A stretch of DNA of 42,206 nt from Bacteroidia bacterium (GTDB lineage: Bacteria; Bacteroidota; Bacteroidia; J057), in NCBI GenBank assembly GCA_030430205.1, contig JAUIGE010000050.1:1-42206 (forward strand). Reading direction: 5' to 3'. Positions 4,853 through 25,540 of the stretch are shown here, piece after piece. Position numbers and translations under genes: made by a program. The first letter of the stretch is position 1; each line of letters begins with the position of its first letter. The notes beneath the pieces are model-generated. The model had not been told where the DNA came from. It was given only the letters and a program-made list of their open reading frames with translations, and searched no databases.

Positions 4853-5121
4853 GTACAGGACAATTTTTCAGGAAAGTCCCCCAAAGTCCCGAAGGGACGC
4901 CATATTCAGCATGGGGCGAAGCCCCATGAAGGTAAACGCCCCCAATAGAAGTCCTGAAAGGACGGCATATCTTAGGAAGCCATAGCTAATATATCGCCCT
5001 TTCAGGGCTTTAGGACCTGGTGTGAATCGAATGATCGGGCTTTGCCCGATCGTAGTATATAGCGTCCCTTCAGGACTTTGAGGATGTTTATTATTCATGG
5101 CTTTCATTTTTTGTCCTGTAC
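4853..5121. repeat. 269-bp inverted-repeat-bounded element with six internal hairpins
   Basis: The stretch between the DnaQ-like gene and the phosphodiesterase gene is about 540 bp and has no convincing gene. It is bounded by a perfect 11-bp inverted repeat: GTACAGGACAA at 4853-4863 and TTGTCCTGTAC at 5111-5121. Inside are six short hairpins, mostly with three-base loops: 4886-4898 (GTCCC/GGGAC, GAA loop), 4910-4928 (CATGGGGC/GCCCCATG, GAA), 4951-4963 (GTCCT/AGGAC, GAA), 4996-5008 (GCCCT/AGGGC, TTC), 5033-5051 (GATCGGGC/GCCCGATC, TTT) and 5064-5076 (GTCC/GGAC). An outer inverted repeat, ACACAGATTA at 4786-4795 and TAATCTGTGT at 5152-5161, encloses it. A 79-codon minus-strand frame (4868-5107) crosses the element but reads through the hairpins and is probably not a gene. 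The layout suggests a dispersed non-coding intergenic repeat. Confidence 0.7.
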
Positions 5122-20215: not shown

Positions 20216-20240
20216 TCCCGGGTGTGTCCCGGGATTTTTT
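20216..20240 (+). terminator. Intrinsic terminator after the SLT gene
   Basis: Stem TCCCGGG (20216-20222) and CCCGGGA (20228-20234) around a TGTGT loop, followed by six T and an ATTTT tail. It lies 60 bp after the SLT stop; its T-run overlaps the stop codon of the convergent DAHP synthase gene. Confidence 0.9.
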
Positions 20241-21342
20241 ATTTTGGGACTTCCTGTGAAGGAGAATTCATCACAACTGCCTGATTTCGGATGGATTCTT
20301 TGTGAATGGCTTGCAGGACCGTGAGCATAAAATCTTCCGACATGCCCATAGGGGCCGCCTGTTCCAGGCGCTCCAATACGATCTCATTCCAACGTGCAGC
20401 CTGAAGAATGGCTACATTATTCTGCTTTTTGTATTCGCCGATCGCGCGGACAAGCCCCATCCTTTTGCCTAAAATATTCACAAGTTCATGGTCCAGATCA
20501 TCAATAGAATGCCTCAAATTCTCCAGTATGTCAATGAATTGGGGGTTGTCGCCCAGGGGTTTTCTTTTGATCAGCTGGGAAGTCATTTCCCTGAAGTTGA
20601 AGGGCGTAAGCTGCTGCTTTGCATCGCTTAGTGCTACATCAGGGTTGATGTGTGATTCGATCATGAGGCCATCAAATCCGAGGTCCAGGGCTTTTTGAGA
20701 AACTGCCGGAATCAGGTCACGAACGCCACAGATGTGGCTGGGGTCACAGATGATGGGCAATTGGGGGTAAAGGCGGCGCAATTCAATCGGAATCTCCCAG
20801 CGCGGATGGTTGCGGTATTTGGTAGGTGTATAGGAGGAAAATCCTCTGTGAATCGCGCCAATCTTGCTGATACCCGCCTGGTTGATGCGCTCCAGCGCAC
20901 CTATCCAAAGGCTCAAATCCGGATTGATCGGATTCTTCACCAATACAGGAATATCCACGCCTTTGAGGGCGTCAGCAATCTCCTGCACAGCAAAAGGGTT
21001 GGTTGTGGTGCGCGCACCTATCCACAGCATATCAATGCCCGCTTTCAGTGCTTCATACACATGCTTCACATTGGCCACCTCCACGGTGACGGGTTTGTTC
21101 TGCTTTTTCGCAGCATCTTTTAGCCATTTCAACCCCTCGCTTCCGACGCCCTCAAATGAATTGGGGCGCGTGCGCGGTTTCCAGATTCCAGCCCGGTAAA
21201 CATCCACCGGGCTATCAGCAAGGCCATCTAGCGTTTGTTCAACCTGCTCCGCACTTTCTGCACTGCATGGTCCTGAAATTAACAGGCGGGTCCCCTGGAT
21301 ATTCAGACCCCATTCATTCATCGGTTTAATGTTTAAAGACAT
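20239..21342 (-). CDS. Bifunctional DAHP synthase / chorismate mutase
   Basis: 367 residues. Residues 1-260 are a type I beta-subfamily (KDO8PS-like) 3-deoxy-7-phosphoheptulonate synthase, which joins phosphoenolpyruvate and erythrose 4-phosphate: LLISGPCSAES, IWKPRTRPNSFEGVG, MLWIGARTTTNP, VLVKNPINPDLSLWIGAL and IICDPSHICG are all present. Residues 270-355 are an AroQ-type chorismate mutase (LRHSIDDLDHELVNILGKRM, with the later Arg/Lys sites), making prephenate from chorismate. The fusion is typical of Bacteroidota and may allow feedback control through the mutase domain. It is the last gene of the minus-strand run pheA - aminotransferase - tyrA - this gene, lying 62 bp after tyrA, a gap filled by a 7-bp tandem repeat. 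Confidence 0.95.
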   Translation of the reverse strand: MSLNIKPMNEWGLNIQGTRLLISGPCSAESAEQVEQTLDGLADSPVDVYRAGIWKPRTRPNSFEGVGSEGLKWLKDAAKKQNKPVTVEVANVKHVYEALKAGIDMLWIGARTTTNPFAVQEIADALKGVDIPVLVKNPINPDLSLWIGALERINQAGISKIGAIHRGFSSYTPTKYRNHPRWEIPIELRRLYPQLPIICDPSHICGVRDLIPAVSQKALDLGFDGLMIESHINPDVALSDAKQQLTPFNFREMTSQLIKRKPLGDNPQFIDILENLRHSIDDLDHELVNILGKRMGLVRAIGEYKKQNNVAILQAARWNEIVLERLEQAAPMGMSEDFMLTVLQAIHKESIRNQAVVMNSPSQEVPK

Positions 21343-21364: not shown

Positions 21365-21475
21365 AATCTCTACTCTCTACTCTCTACTCTCTACTCTCTA
21401 CTCTCTACTCTCTGCTCTCTACTCTCTCCTCTCTGCTCTCTCCTCTCGCCTCCCGCCTCTCGCCTCCCACCTCAA
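21365..21475 (-). repeat. GAGGCGAG repeat, copy C, with TAGAGAG microsatellite
   Basis: On the minus strand this reads GAGGCGAGAGGCGGGAGGCG, then GAGAGCAGAGAG, then about six to eight copies of a 7-bp unit TAGAGAG, ending TAGAGATTAAGAA. It covers the 3' end of tyrA, including its stop at 21405, and the gap before the DAHP synthase start. The last 20 or so residues of TyrA (rich in Arg, Glu and Ser) are encoded by it. Confidence 0.9.
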
Positions 21476-22310
21476 GTATCCTCCCAATCTCATTCGCCTG
21501 AGCCATTTGCTCATAGGTTCCCTCAAAATCGTCCTGAGCGATGAGATCACGAAAGAGCTGAACCTTTTCTACATACAGGTCCAATACATCCAAAAGGTTG
21601 TTTTTGTTTTGCTTGTACACATCTCCCCACATTTTGGGGGAGCTTTTGGCGAGGCGGACAGTGGATCGGAATCCACCGCTTGCGAGGTTGAAGATATTGG
21701 CTTCGCTTTTTTCTTTTTCCAAAACCGTCAGGGCGAGAGCAAAAGAACTGATGTGGGAAATGTGGGATACATAAGCAGCATGTACATCATGCTCTTCTGC
21801 ATCCATATAAATGATGCGCATAAACAGGCTTTTGAATAGTTTCTCAGCCGTTTTTACAGCATCTGCTGCGGACTGCTCCTGTCCGCAAATGATGGCCGCA
21901 TTTTCCTGAAAAAGGTTTCGATGGGCCGCCTGAGGGCCGGAAAATTCAGTTCCAGCCATGGGATGGGCAGCTACAAATCGCGCTCGAAGGGGATGGTTTT
22001 TGACAGATCTGATGATCTCTGCCTTAGTGGAACCCATGTCCAGCACAGTTTGCCGGGCTGTTATTTGCCCCAAGATTTCGGGCAAAAGCCCGATGGTTGC
22101 GCCCACCGGAATGGCCAGGAGCAGGAGGTCTGCCTCCTGGCAGGCGGTTTCCAGATCGACGACTTCGTCGATCAAATCCAGCTCCAGGGCCTGCAGGCCA
22201 TGTTCCCGGCGGCTATCTACGCCGAGCCTCCGCTCTGCAAAGCCATTGGCTTTGAGGTCCAGGCCCAATGAGCCGCCGATCAGGCCGAGGCCAATAATAG
22301 CAACCGTCAT
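21405..22310 (-). CDS. tyrA: Prephenate dehydrogenase
   Basis: 301 residues. It oxidises prephenate to 4-hydroxyphenylpyruvate, the tyrosine branch. The NAD-binding Rossmann motif GLGLIGGSLG sits at residues 7-16, with an Asp at the end of the second strand (GVDSRREH), suggesting NAD rather than NADP. Catalytic and substrate motifs AAHPMAGTEFSGP and YVSHISHISSFAL follow, with a helical C-terminal domain. The start overlaps the aminotransferase stop by 4 bp (ATGA), indicating coupled translation. The tail GGERREARGESREERVESRE is encoded by a repeat and is probably a recent, non-functional extension; the domain itself ends near residue 280. Confidence 0.95.
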   Translation of the reverse strand: MTVAIIGLGLIGGSLGLDLKANGFAERRLGVDSRREHGLQALELDLIDEVVDLETACQEADLLLLAIPVGATIGLLPEILGQITARQTVLDMGSTKAEIIRSVKNHPLRARFVAAHPMAGTEFSGPQAAHRNLFQENAAIICGQEQSAADAVKTAEKLFKSLFMRIIYMDAEEHDVHAAYVSHISHISSFALALTVLEKEKSEANIFNLASGGFRSTVRLAKSSPKMWGDVYKQNKNNLLDVLDLYVEKVQLFRDLIAQDDFEGTYEQMAQANEIGRILEVGGERREARGESREERVESRE

Positions 22311-23512
22311 GCTTCCTGTATGCTTAAAGAGGGTGAAAGAAGCGGGCGTCTGTCAGCAAAAGCTTTTACGCGGCTGAGCGCCAATTCCAAATGGTGGATC
22401 GGGCTGCAGAGCGATAGGCGCAAATAGCCTTCTCCATTTTTCCCGAAAATAAAACCAGGTGTCAGGAATAGCTGGGTTTCATTGAGGATTTCATCACTGA
22501 AAGCAGCGCTATCTGACGCATCTGCCGGAATTTTTGCCCACAAAAACATGCCTGTTTGATTGGGATCAAAGCTGCAATTCAGGCTGCTCATGATCTGTTT
22601 TGCCAATTCAAAACGGCTTTCGTAGATCTCGTTTTGCTCAATATGCCATTGAAAATCCTGCTTCAAAATATGCGCTGCTGCCTCTTGCAGAGGCCGGGCC
22701 ATGCCAGAATCCATATTGGATTTTATTTGCAAAATGGCATGGATATAAGCTGCATCGCCTACGACTACCCCTACGCGCCACCCGGCGATATGGTGGGATT
22801 TACTCATCGAGTTGAGCTCGATGGCGACTTCCCGGGCATCTGCCTGGTGGAGAATACTGGCTGGCTGTTGGCTGCGAATAAGGCTGTAGGGATTGTCGTT
22901 GACGAGCAGGATCTTATGTTTTCGCGCAAAGGCGATCAGTTTTTGAAAAAGTTCGGGACTGCCGGTGGCACCTGTCGGCATATTGGGATAGGAAACCCAC
23001 ATGAGTTTCACCTTCTCCAGCTTTAAGCTGTTGAGCTGCTCCCAATCTGGTTCCCATTGCTTGTCGGCAAGCAAATTATAGGAAATCACTTCCGCCCCTA
23101 CCAATTCGCTTACTGAGCCGTAGGTCAGATAGCCCGGATCGGGCACCAAAACCTGGTCGCCGGGATTGAGGAAAGCCATGGAAATATGCATGATGCCTTC
23201 TTTGGAACCCATGAGGGGCTGTATTTCCGTCTCGGGATTCAGGGAAACGCCATACATCCGGCTGTAAAAATCAGCAAAAGCTTCCCGCAAGGCCGGAATG
23301 CCTTTATAAGGCTGATAAGCGTGCAATCCCGGCTCCGCGACCTGAGCGATCAGCTGCTTTTTAAAATCCACCGGAGGTTCCAGGTCAGGGCTACCAATGC
23401 CCAGATTGAGGATATCCTCCCCCTGCGCAATCCGATCGCGCAACTCCCGCAACTTGCGCGAGAAGTAATATTCAGGAACCTTTTGAAGGCGGTCAGCCAT
23501 TTGAATTATCAT
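22307..23512 (-). CDS. PLP-dependent aminotransferase (class I/II) of the aromatic operon
   Basis: 401 residues; a second ATG 12 bp downstream (23500) could also be the start. It is a fold-type I aminotransferase: LNLGIGSPDLEPP near the N-terminus, YQPYKGIPALREAFADFY, NMPTGATGS, the NDNPYSLI strand with the PLP-ring Asp-x-Tyr, and SMSKSHHIAGWRVG with the PLP lysine. The closest-looking families are LL-diaminopimelate or aspartate/aromatic aminotransferases. Its position between pheA and tyrA suggests it makes phenylalanine and tyrosine from phenylpyruvate and 4-hydroxyphenylpyruvate; this is inferred from context. It overlaps tyrA by 4 bp. The 68 bp separating it from pheA contain a GAGGCGAG repeat. 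Confidence 0.9.
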   Translation of the reverse strand: MIIQMADRLQKVPEYYFSRKLRELRDRIAQGEDILNLGIGSPDLEPPVDFKKQLIAQVAEPGLHAYQPYKGIPALREAFADFYSRMYGVSLNPETEIQPLMGSKEGIMHISMAFLNPGDQVLVPDPGYLTYGSVSELVGAEVISYNLLADKQWEPDWEQLNSLKLEKVKLMWVSYPNMPTGATGSPELFQKLIAFARKHKILLVNDNPYSLIRSQQPASILHQADAREVAIELNSMSKSHHIAGWRVGVVVGDAAYIHAILQIKSNMDSGMARPLQEAAAHILKQDFQWHIEQNEIYESRFELAKQIMSSLNCSFDPNQTGMFLWAKIPADASDSAAFSDEILNETQLFLTPGFIFGKNGEGYLRLSLCSPIHHLELALSRVKAFADRRPLLSPSLSIQEA

Positions 23513-23529
23513 GGAATTCGTTTCTTAAT

Positions 23530-23580
23530 CTCTAATCTCTAATCTCGCCTCCCGCCTCCCGCCTCCCGCCTCTCGCCTCC
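23530..23580 (-). repeat. GAGGCGAG repeat, copy D
   Basis: On the minus strand, directly after the pheA stop: GGAGGCGAGAGGCGGGAGGC repeats, then GAGATTAGAGATTAGAGATT and AAGAAAC, ending about 15 bp before the aminotransferase start. It shares both its GAGGCG core and its TTAGAGATTAAGAA end with copy C behind tyrA. Confidence 0.85.
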
Positions 23581-24435
23581 CTACACCGGCTTCTCCCCCC
23601 TCGGGTATTCCCCCAAACAATGATATTGCTCTACGAGCGGGTTGATCGCAACCATAGCCCGTTGGTATTTGGAAAAATCCTCAAACTCCAGGTCTATGTG
23701 GAAAAAGTATTGCCATTCCCGCCCGGGAATAGGGGAGGACTGGATTTTGGTCAGGTTGAGGTCGAGTGCAGCGAGAGAAAGGAGCACTTGTGCCAGGCAG
23801 CCTTTTTCGTGTTTGAGGTTAAAGCAGATGGAAGCTTTTTGGGGTTCCAACTGGTGCTTGAGCGCTTGCTCAGGCATAGAGAGGACCAAAAAGCGGGTGA
23901 AATTGCGTTTGTTGTCTTCGATATCGGTAGCGAGGATTTCCAGGCCATGCAGCTCCGCCGCTTCGCGGCTGGCAATGGCGGCAACGCCCTCCAGTTTACC
24001 CCTGGCTATTTCTTCGGCACTGCCAGCGGTATCTCCTTTTTCTACTATCCTGATGTGGGGATAGCGCTGTAAAAAGCGCCCGCATTGAGCAAGCGCCATC
24101 GGATGCGAGTGTATCTCGCGGATGTCCTCCAGCTTGTGCCCTGGCAAAGCCATGAGTTGGTGGTCAATTCTGAGGTAGACCTCGCCGATGATGACCAGAC
24201 CCGAATTGCGCAGCAAGACATAGTTCGGCAGGATAGTTCCGGCCAGAGAATTCTCAATGGCCATCACCGCGTAGGTGCTTCTGTTTTTTTGCATGGACAA
24301 AAACAGGTGCTGAAAGGAAGGACACATGTCCATATCCACTTCCTGACCAAAAAACTGTTTCGCCGCCAATTCATGATAAGAAGCGTGATAGCCCTGAATG
24401 GCTACCTTTTGTGCGATGATTTGTGCTGTTTTCAT
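23581..24435 (-). CDS. pheA: Prephenate dehydratase
   Basis: 284 residues from the ATG at 24435 (MKTAQIIAQKVAIQGYHASY); an in-frame ATG 15 bp upstream would fall closer to the terminator U-tract. It converts prephenate to phenylpyruvate, the phenylalanine branch. The dehydratase domain shows AIENSLAGTILPNYVLL and KRNFTRFLVL (the N.TRF motif). A C-terminal ACT domain (about 200-280) begins with GCLAQVLLSLAALDLNLTKIQ and senses phenylalanine in relatives. The usual ESRP motif reads QSSP. There is no chorismate mutase domain; that activity is fused to DAHP synthase at the end of the operon. It is the first structural gene after an aromatic leader peptide and terminator. Confidence 0.95.
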   Translation of the reverse strand: MKTAQIIAQKVAIQGYHASYHELAAKQFFGQEVDMDMCPSFQHLFLSMQKNRSTYAVMAIENSLAGTILPNYVLLRNSGLVIIGEVYLRIDHQLMALPGHKLEDIREIHSHPMALAQCGRFLQRYPHIRIVEKGDTAGSAEEIARGKLEGVAAIASREAAELHGLEILATDIEDNKRNFTRFLVLSMPEQALKHQLEPQKASICFNLKHEKGCLAQVLLSLAALDLNLTKIQSSPIPGREWQYFFHIDLEFEDFSKYQRAMVAINPLVEQYHCLGEYPRGEKPV

Positions 24436-24448
24436 TGTTTTGTAAATC

Positions 24449-24480
24449 AAAAAGCGCCCCTGATTTTTTTCAGGGACGCT
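24449..24480 (-). terminator. Terminator/attenuator hairpin in the pheA leader
   Basis: On the minus-strand RNA, AGCGUCCCUGA (24480-24470) pairs over its whole length (one U-G wobble) with UCAGGGGCGCU (24463-24453) around a six-A loop, followed directly by UUUU-GAUUU. The pheA start is 17 bp beyond. The 5' arm can instead pair with AGGGGGCUUUUG (24521-24510), which begins at the leader-peptide stop codon. That pairing has 10 of 12 positions matched, including two wobbles, around a 2x2 mismatch. The two structures are mutually exclusive. Confidence 0.85.
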
Positions 24481-24519
24481 TTGCGTATTTTCGTTTATGT
24501 TAATTCAAACAAAAGCCCC

Positions 24520-24585
24520 CTACCTATTTTGGTAAATAAAATAGTAGCAAAAATACCAGGCCGTTTGTTTTGAAAAATGTGTCAT
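24520..24585 (-). CDS. Aromatic-rich leader peptide (21 residues) of the pheA operon
   Basis: ATG at 24585, TAG at 24522-24520. The peptide starts MTHFSKQTA and continues WYFCYYFIY, so seven of nine consecutive codons (10-18) are Trp, Tyr or Phe, and eight of 21 residues overall are aromatic. Ribosome stalling here when charged aromatic tRNAs are scarce would leave the segment just after the stop codon free to form the antiterminator. A ribosome reaching the stop would cover it and let the terminator form. The ATG is only 8 bp beyond a promoter -7 element, so the transcript is nearly leaderless. A longer upstream in-frame reading (from 24756) crosses the bestrophin gene and is not credible. 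Function is inferred from architecture; the peptide itself is probably non-functional. Confidence 0.8.
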   Translation of the reverse strand: MTHFSKQTAWYFCYYFIYQNR

Positions 24586-24593
24586 ATTGAGAG

Positions 24594-24624
24594 CAAGTAT
24601 AAATAAAAATATGTTAACTGCAAA
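24594..24624 (-). promoter_or_regulatory. Promoter of the pheA leader/aromatic operon
   Basis: On the minus strand, TTTG (24624-24621), exactly 19 bp, then TATACTTG (24601-24594). The Bacteroidota consensus is TTTG-N19-21-TAnnTTTG, so one of the informative positions differs. Transcription would start within the 8 bp before the leader ATG. Confidence 0.7.
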
Positions 24625-24661: not shown

Positions 24662-25540
24662 TTATTGAGGATCAGCAAAAGAAAAGATTTCTTCCAGGTT
24701 GTTTTTGATGTTATGAGCGATCTTATCAACGGGTAAATCGTTGTCATCTCTTCCAAAGGGATCTTCGATTTCTTCGGCGATGATGACCACCGCCATCATG
24801 AAGTAATAGATCAGTGCAACCACCAGGATGGACCACCAGTGCAGGGTGTCGATCAGACTAAAGGGAAGAATCAGGGCGTAAATAATTACGCTTACCCGCA
24901 ACACATAATTGTGCGACAAAGGCAGGGGCGTATTGTGGATGCGTTCGCATTTGCCGAGTATATCGACCAGCTCATCGGTATTTTCGATGAGTTTGAGCAT
25001 CTGAAAGTCGGTGACGACCTTTTGGTCATACAAAGACCTGATGCGCGAAAGCAGCAGTTGGATGATGCGGTTGGGTTTGTGTTGAGCCTGCTCAATCTGC
25101 GATTTCAATTGGCCTTCGGGCAAGCCGAGTTCTTCCATGATTACGCCCTGGCGGAGGTGTTCTTTCAGCGAAAAAACAAAAGCCACGAGGAGAGATTGAA
25201 AGTCCTTCTGGTCTTTTTCAGGCGTCTCTGTCAGCAGCGAGCGCAGTTGCATGGCAAAATTGCGGCTGGTATTGACCAGGCCACCCAGGATTTTGCGGGC
25301 TTCCCACCAACGGTCATAAGCGGTATTATTTCTAAAAACCAGCAGCATACCGATGACCACACCCAGCAGGCCGGGAAGGGAAAGGCTGACTTCCAGCACA
25401 AAAATGCCGCTATCATGCAACCAGGTAAATAAACCTGTCAGCACAACCAAAAATGCCAGGCTGGCCCACAGCCTGCGGATAAGGGAACCTTTAAATTGAA
25501 AAATGAGTTGGAGGTCTTTCGCCCAGTGGTAGAGTCTCAT
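24662..25540 (-). CDS. Bestrophin-family ion channel
   Basis: 292 residues, the normal size for bacterial bestrophins, which form pentameric anion or cation channels in the inner membrane. Membrane segments are seen at about 25-45, 50-70, 213-230 and 235-255. The family signature RNNTAYDRWWEARKILGGLVN follows segment two, and the acidic EEIEDPFGRDDNDLPVD follows the last one, as in other members. The gene ends 76 bp upstream of the pheA leader ATG, in the same direction. A separate promoter lies between them, so read-through is possible but the leader can act independently. Confidence 0.92.
   Translation of the reverse strand: MRLYHWAKDLQLIFQFKGSLIRRLWASLAFLVVLTGLFTWLHDSGIFVLEVSLSLPGLLGVVIGMLLVFRNNTAYDRWWEARKILGGLVNTSRNFAMQLRSLLTETPEKDQKDFQSLLVAFVFSLKEHLRQGVIMEELGLPEGQLKSQIEQAQHKPNRIIQLLLSRIRSLYDQKVVTDFQMLKLIENTDELVDILGKCERIHNTPLPLSHNYVLRVSVIIYALILPFSLIDTLHWWSILVVALIYYFMMAVVIIAEEIEDPFGRDDNDLPVDKIAHNIKNNLEEIFSFADPQ

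Follow-up and report, generated by a model that had tools for sequence, protein, structure and literature searches.

A putative phenylalanine/tyrosine attenuator before the pheA operon of a Bacteroidia bacterium and its relatives in the class

Between a bestrophin-like gene and an aromatic amino acid operon in a Bacteroidia bacterium (assembly GCA_030430205.1) lies a short region that raises a simple question: is it a control element and, if so, what does it sense? The window (that is, the whole stretch of 42,206 nucleotides that was analysed, from contig JAUIGE010000050.1) carries pheA, an aminotransferase gene, tyrA and a gene for DAHP synthase fused to chorismate mutase (DAHPS/CM). In E. 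coli, control elements of this kind (pheL before pheA, trpL before the trp operon) combine a short ORF holding codons for the pathway's product, regions that pair as 1:2, 2:3 or 3:4, and a terminator just before the first gene. The ORF, the predicted pairings and the terminator placement are the same in the window. We conclude that a classical ribosome-mediated transcription attenuator (the trp/phe/his logic, with regions 1–4) very probably controls the pheA–aminotransferase–tyrA–DAHPS/CM operon.

The predicted elements are compact (table 1). The first-pass annotation of this DNA had proposed a TTTG-N19-TATACTTG promoter, and all of its parts are present on the minus strand with a spacer of 19 nt. 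It had also read a 21-codon leader with seven aromatic codons within residues 10–18 (WYFCYYFIY), and the sequence agrees exactly: the ORF runs from an ATG at 24585-24583 to a TAG at 24522-24520, and its control codons are TGG TAT TTT TGC TAC TAT TTT ATT TAC. The terminator lies where that annotation had put it, between the leader ORF and the pheA ATG at 24435, but its stem AAGCGTCCCTGA/TCAGGGGCGCTT has 12 bp by folding (24481-24452, one G-U) instead of 11, followed by five T to 24449. There is only one leader–terminator module in the window.

Table 1. Predicted control elements, operon genes and upstream neighbour in the window.
Feature	Position	Strand	Basis
Bestrophin-like gene upstream of leader	24662-25540	-	PF25539
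TTTG, -33-like promoter box (predicted)	24621..24624	-	sequence; consensus as in the accessible text of PMC7366714
TATACTTG, -7-like box, Bacteroidota TAnnTTTG type (predicted)	24594..24601	-	sequence
Leader ORF (predicted)	24520..24585	-	MTHFSKQTAWYFCYYFIYQNR-stop; sequence, shuffles, comparison
Region 1, inside leader ORF	24554..24574	-	region 2 partner in minimum-energy fold; family-level support
Region 2	24504..24524	-	folding; includes antiterminator strand
Antiterminator strand GTAGGGGGCTTT	24523-24512	-	part of region 2 pairing with region 3
Region 3, terminator 5' arm	24470..24481	-	folding and comparison
Region 4, terminator 3' arm (24463-24452) with T tract to 24449	24449..24463	-	sequence, folding, comparison
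pheA, prephenate dehydratase	23581..24435	-	PF00800
Class I/II aminotransferase	22307..23512	-	domain match
tyrA, prephenate dehydrogenase	21405..22310	-	NF006307 above its cut-off
DAHP synthase fused to chorismate mutase	20239..21342	-	PF00793 and PF01817

Could these elements be accidental? One alternative is that a T/A-rich stretch happens to read as an aromatic ORF and that the hairpin is merely the terminator of the bestrophin gene. The setting lends it some colour: that gene shares the strand, with 76 nt between its end and the leader ATG, and T-rich DNA readily reads as Phe and Tyr. The rival pairing that the first-pass annotation had placed at the leader stop codon is present (GTAGGGGGCTTT with AAGCGTCCCTGA, -11.7 kcal/mol) but is not significant by itself (p 0.19). 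The 1:2 pairing alone gives p 0.12, and in a matrix of swapped partners (see below) 26 arms from other loci outscore the window's own arm as partners of its region 2. Against this alternative, when the 300 nt upstream are shuffled with dinucleotide composition kept, only one of 3000 shuffles yields a short ATG ORF with at least seven aromatic codons in ten. The RNA from 24584 to 24436 folds with a z of -5.2, equalled by 0/200 shuffles, and in its minimum-energy fold the full leader forms 1:2 together with 3:4. Together with the comparisons below, this makes a chance origin extremely improbable. The rival pairings as predicted from sequence are convincing for the leader family as a whole, not for the window alone.

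The element was therefore followed among relatives. A first set held 101 pheA loci, including those of the best 80 of 179 relatives, and 99 had enough upstream sequence; named members are Saprospiraceae, Chitinophagales, Flavobacterium, Cyclobacterium, Solitalea and Bacteroidales, which point to Bacteroidia as the class sampled. Among these best-matching relatives, 59 of the 99 loci carry an ATG ORF with at least seven aromatic codons in ten within 300 nt upstream, a cut-off reached by 0.3% of shuffles and by 0/99 reverse strands (lower cut-offs are reached by shuffles more often: 7.2% at five or more, 1.9% at six or more). Since this first set consists of best-matching relatives, an even draw across the class was made. 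The query was matched in 78 of 295 genomes, giving 77 usable loci (a fragment in G043 was left out). pheA stands first in an aromatic operon at 69 of them; the other eight were classed as stand-alone, and one of those (L364) has a DAHPS gene further downstream. An aromatic ORF precedes 51/69 operon loci at a score of at least five, again arguing against chance, and 46/69 at six or more. None of the eight stand-alone loci has one.

The leader is found at six or more in every locus of family labels f47 (9/9), f48 (8/8), f39 (5/5) and f1, the window's own (3/3). The first-pass annotation had named as the damaging case a relative that keeps the gene order and lacks the ORF. Such relatives do occur outside the window's family (f21 has the ORF in 3/6 loci and f18 in 0/8, namely L340, L344, L345, L346, L350, L352, L354 and L356), but not inside it: all eight loci of the window's family (L001-L008) have both aromatic ORF and terminator, counting loci with pheA and upstream sequence (a ninth, L020, is truncated where its contig stops). 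The f18 loci keep the pheA–aminotransferase order, with tyrA seen in seven of the eight. Overall, 18 of the 69 operon loci in the class draw have no ATG leader, some with the same gene order and one (L380) with a non-ATG ORF; we read the leaderless loci with kept gene order as loss or replacement. Scanning upstream of 21 loci with no leader or a doubtful one found no convincing ATG leader adjoining the gene. GTG-start candidates exist at some of them, and leaders at L232, L263 and L380 seem to start with GTG, so the ATG-only counts are lower bounds.

How far does the element reach? In a draw across the phylum, 282 of 325 genomes had PF00800, and 60 loci were hand-picked among the best-scoring matches listed. 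Because of this picking, with several loci per family label, the sample is weighted to stand-alone pheA of other classes. Only one locus (L160) reaches six or more; L125 scores five with an ORF unlike a leader. By context, this is 1/9 operon loci and 0/51 stand-alone loci, and the idea of a phylum-wide element was rejected on the 1/60 count. The predicted aromatic leader is class-wide, not universal, and the putative attenuator in the window has counterparts across the class.

A few details govern how these counts should be read. Control regions before trpE, hisG and ilvD reach five aromatic codons in ten at 6/37 loci, so a threshold of five is loose and six to seven safer; three of the six are WWW leaders (L170, L172, L173), L174 has a single W before trpE, and L287 and L288 look like chance. 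A genome of the same genus (G001) gives no DNA match to the window's leader, and it is uninformative on this point because pheA and tyrA are also without a match there. Fragments (L020, L023), loci with too little upstream sequence (L033, L047) and near-duplicates (L024, L047, L050, L057, L085) were left out; L053 is likewise listed as a near-duplicate but has no leader. Some genomes occur in several sets (e.g. L042/L230, L043/L274); such repeats between sets were removed for the composition and tree tests only.

The leader ORF is only one part of an attenuator. A terminator lies between the aromatic run and pheA at 76/78 leader loci (those of L049, L051 and L057 were re-picked). Among 71 non-duplicate loci, the distance from the last aromatic codon to the terminator stem is narrow (median 55 nt, 5–95% range 45–69 nt), which speaks against a chance ORF beside an unrelated hairpin. 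The distance from that codon to the antiterminator strand has a median of 11 nt (10–90% range 7–15), and 11 nt is about the stretch that a ribosome covers ahead of its A site (its footprint). Pairings are better than in shuffles at p<0.05 for the antiterminator in 51/71 loci and for 1:2 in 42/71.

The first-pass annotation had proposed looking for compensatory change in the two stems. Within the window's family, RNAalifold recovers the 1:2 and terminator hairpins, with pairing kept through two-sided change in 11/28 pairs. No covariation of 2:3 appears in the family alignment, where GTCC is invariant in all eight sequences, and for this reason partners were swapped across the class instead. Over the 71 loci, own 2:3 duplexes average -12.1 kcal/mol against -9.4 for permuted ones, and own 1:2 duplexes -18.7 against -13.2 kcal/mol; in each case 0/10,000 permutations reach the observed mean. 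Over the whole set, these swap tests are decisive in favour of an attenuator, yet at individual loci the own arm ranks first among partners in only 8/71 and in the top tenth in only 27/71. Exact complements of at least 6 nt between region 2 and the arm occur in 39/71 loci, with 21 distinct cores, and in 23% of swapped pairs; that is, the partners change together. Sequence and comparison together establish the predicted leader, terminator, rival pairings and spacing. In the terms by which ribosome-mediated attenuators are recognized, there is a short ORF rich in product codons, an intrinsic terminator between this ORF and the first gene and, at family level, an antiterminator that excludes the terminator and lies shortly after the control codons (the window alone staying at p 0.19).

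Would these pairings respond to a ribosome? We folded the RNA downstream of a modelled ribosome (footprint 13 nt) before the terminator 3' arm exists, at equilibrium rather than kinetically. At least four expected 2:3 pairs form in 68/71 loci with the ribosome in mid-run, in 0/71 with the ribosome at the stop codon and in 40/71 with no ribosome. In the window, the expected 2:3 pairs are 7.9, 0 and 2.4, respectively. Other footprints give 3/71 (11 nt) and 0/71 (16 nt) at the stop codon, and 47/71 for a 16-nt footprint stalled on the last aromatic codon. Geometry accounts for most of the stop-codon result, because the assumed footprint covers the antiterminator, and the 40/71 without a ribosome mean that 1:2 does not dominate everywhere. 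The measure also depends on the antiterminator picked for the shuffle test. An earlier metric, which counted any upstream pairing of region 3, exceeded 0.5 at the stop codon in 14/71 loci and was replaced; the window's value of 0.75 came from a small local hairpin. In this model, the folding is what stalling-dependent antitermination needs.

The proposed mechanism can be set out as follows. With ample charged Phe- and Tyr-tRNA, the ribosome would reach the leader stop codon and cover region 2, leaving region 3 to pair with region 4 and transcription to stop before pheA. If charging of either tRNA is poor, the ribosome would stall in the aromatic run; region 2, now free, would pair with region 3, no terminator would form and the operon would be transcribed. 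Without any translation, 1:2 and 3:4 would both form and transcription would end. From this arrangement we infer that the ORF is translated, that ribosome and polymerase are coupled and that the element responds to tRNA charging.

The best windows of 137 leaders, which were chosen for being aromatic, hold 632 TTT/TTC and 446 TAT/TAC codons against seven TTA/TTG; these Leu codons are thus nearly absent from the runs, which speaks against a chance reading of T-rich DNA. Among 59 changed aromatic codons in 27 pairs, 32 changes are synonymous, 13 exchange F, Y or W and 14 lose the aromatic residue. This bears on a second alternative, in which a T-box, a riboswitch or a protein-binding attenuator does the work; the U-rich tract would then be where binding occurs, and the ORF would play no part. 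T-boxes or TRAP do serve aromatic operons elsewhere. Here, however, the identity of F and Y is kept and synonymous change is the commonest, the leader residues vary with operon content (see below) and the antiterminator sits at a set distance from the codon run. Moreover, no Rfam leader, T-box or riboswitch family reaches its gathering score in the window's leader, at 17 pheA loci or at three other leader loci (the two Rfam matches among these 20 loci are tRNAs). We consider such an element exceedingly unlikely.

Leader composition appears to track the genes controlled. After deduplication, 120 operon leaders with a score of at least six hold 5.3 Phe and 3.7 Tyr on average, with at least one Tyr in each. 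The six leaders before a stand-alone pheA at the same cut-off average 6.5 Phe and 0.5 Tyr (Mann–Whitney p 1.6e-5 against the operon leaders). At five or more, stand-alone leaders are Phe-rich with at most one Tyr in the run in 8/8 cases; four operon leaders (L042, L055, L060, L100) also have at most one. On the tree, there are three supported independent contrasts between operon and stand-alone loci (five when all branches are used). All three go the expected way, but their number is too small for significance (sign test p 0.25). No further stand-alone leaders for this test were found: the G382 order proved to be the same sampled genomes as the G380 order, and the class draw held none. A search for tyrA covered 17 genomes, chosen mostly for their stand-alone pheA, and gave a match in 12. 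Nine of the 12 tyrA operons have a Phe/Tyr leader of their own, five of these with Trp, and a terminator follows the leader in the same nine. A fit of leader codons to operon content is suggested by these comparisons.

A third alternative keeps the stalled ribosome and changes its cause: in an arrest peptide, the nascent chain plus a ligand would stall the ribosome, not an uncharged tRNA. Some sensing peptides do resemble hydrophobic aromatic runs, yet the present run swaps F and Y with no fixed motif seen, stand-alone pheA leaders are Phe-rich and Tyr-poor, and candidate trp and his leaders of the same genome carry W and H. An arrest peptide is, in our judgement, highly improbable. With tRNA charging as the preferred signal, which amino acids count? 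The first-pass annotation had Phe, Tyr and Trp set expression jointly. Phe and Tyr hold, but Trp is only minor: it appears in the run of 21/121 pheA operon leaders, and the trp operon has its own WWW leader. The best reading is that the window's leader senses Phe and Tyr, and Trp at most weakly. More broadly, we lean towards a picture in which much of Bacteroidia uses a Phe-OR-Tyr attenuator whose codon mix is rewritten when the operon splits (Phe-only before a lone pheA; Phe/Tyr, often with Trp, before tyrA–DAHPS), with a serial duplicate in one branch.

Serial modules are indeed seen. Two leader–terminator modules in succession occur at 15/65 leader loci in a sample of Bacteroidales type, drawn from the order to which L043's genome belongs, at 2/71 loci of the first set and at 2/12 tyrA loci; no triple was seen. 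Both antiterminators reach p<=0.05 in 11 of 19 tandem rows, which include repeats or close relatives (L042/L230, L238/L239). The rows at this level are L238, L239, L242, L248, L253, L254, L255, L256, L260 and L209 for pheA and L192 for tyrA; the eight further tandem rows are weaker. If correct, such loci would place two ribosome-gated terminators in succession before one gene, and these natural tandem copies offer a means to study serial transcription gates.

Leader peptides in the window's genome may not be limited to pheA. Candidate leaders precede trpE (WWW, MSFNWWWHTSIPLVGHRRIL, L168), hisG (HH.HHH, MFTQFHHIHHHTTTDSSGG, L286) and ilvD (rich in Ile, Leu and Val, MLLWVINNVIIVLVGLIPHP, L297), so that, judged by sequence, leader peptides may serve at least four operons. 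Short ORFs with a cluster of three Trp codons lie upstream of trpE at 10 of 13 loci examined of 20 (L164-L173), as WWW in nine and WWRW in L165. One of them belongs to G001, the genome of the same genus, which has trpE with a WWW leader (L170) and no match for pheA, tyrA, hisG or ilvD; perhaps it is an amino acid auxotroph.

The predicted start of the leader is also unusual. The first-pass annotation had called it nearly leaderless, which holds as a prediction: TATACTTG lies 8 nt before the ATG, and in probable promoters of F. johnsoniae the start site follows the -7 box after 4–5 nt (PMC6847099), so the predicted 5' UTR is 3–4 nt. The window's family (L001-L008) shares a promoter-like box 4–11 nt upstream of the leader ATG. 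More widely, a TAnnnTTG box lies within 60 nt of the leader ATG at 45/71 loci, at a median distance of 18. A 5' UTR as short as the one predicted here is uncommon in the phylum: in the accessible parts of the respective studies, about 3.7% of 5' UTRs are <10 nt in B. thetaiotaomicron (PMC7366714), 5.5% are leaderless in F. psychrophilum (PMC9723704) and 87% are >10 nt in F. johnsoniae (PMC6847099).

Attenuation through leader peptides is a well-established kind of control, and its principle has been partly anticipated in this phylum. Rfam holds amino acid leader families for Phe, Trp, His and others; the window's element works like these, yet it belongs to no described RNA family. Compared with E. 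coli, the window's leader has codons for two amino acids (Phe and Tyr), both made by the operon, it has a predicted 5' UTR of 3–4 nt and no Rfam leader match, and its phylum does not use Shine–Dalgarno sequences (PMC6847099, as far as its accessible text goes). The first-pass annotation knew of no well-described example in this group, a statement that two papers qualify. A 2021 transcriptome of F. psychrophilum (PMC9723704) reports a structured 5' element before pheA (same gene, same phylum), counts it among elements conserved in Flavobacteriaceae without Rfam matches and sees 'strong clues' that amino acid operons are attenuated through leader peptides; the portion of the paper accessible to us gives neither a leader sequence nor a pairing model, and mentions neither tandem forms nor a link to operon content. 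In B. thetaiotaomicron, an attenuator before the same operon type, pheA>hisHb>aroAIb-aroQ>tyrA, was predicted in the Merino database by 2005 (PMC1173090, Table 7), as a database structure prediction, and the word 'leader' is absent from the main text as available. No account of a dual Phe/Tyr leader peptide in this group, or of its link to operon content, appeared in the largely open-access literature searched.

For ribosome-mediated attenuation to work, translation of the leader has to start promptly and the ribosome has to follow the polymerase closely. Widespread use of such control without Shine–Dalgarno sequences, here with so short a predicted 5' UTR, would make this leader a natural reporter for initiation and coupling in Bacteroidota, and one that should sense two amino acids. 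For annotation, it matters that the tested loci match no Rfam leader family.

Minor features of the window deserve mention. The gap between pheA and the aminotransferase gene (23526-23580) holds short purine-rich repeats, GGCGGGAGGCGGGAGGCGGGAGGC and GATTAGAGATTAGAGATTA, and the TyrA tail GGERREARGESREERVESRE also looks repeat-derived. Far from the operon, positions 4885-4928 on the minus strand match the Acido-Lenti-1 RNA with 39.1 bits against a gathering score of 37.
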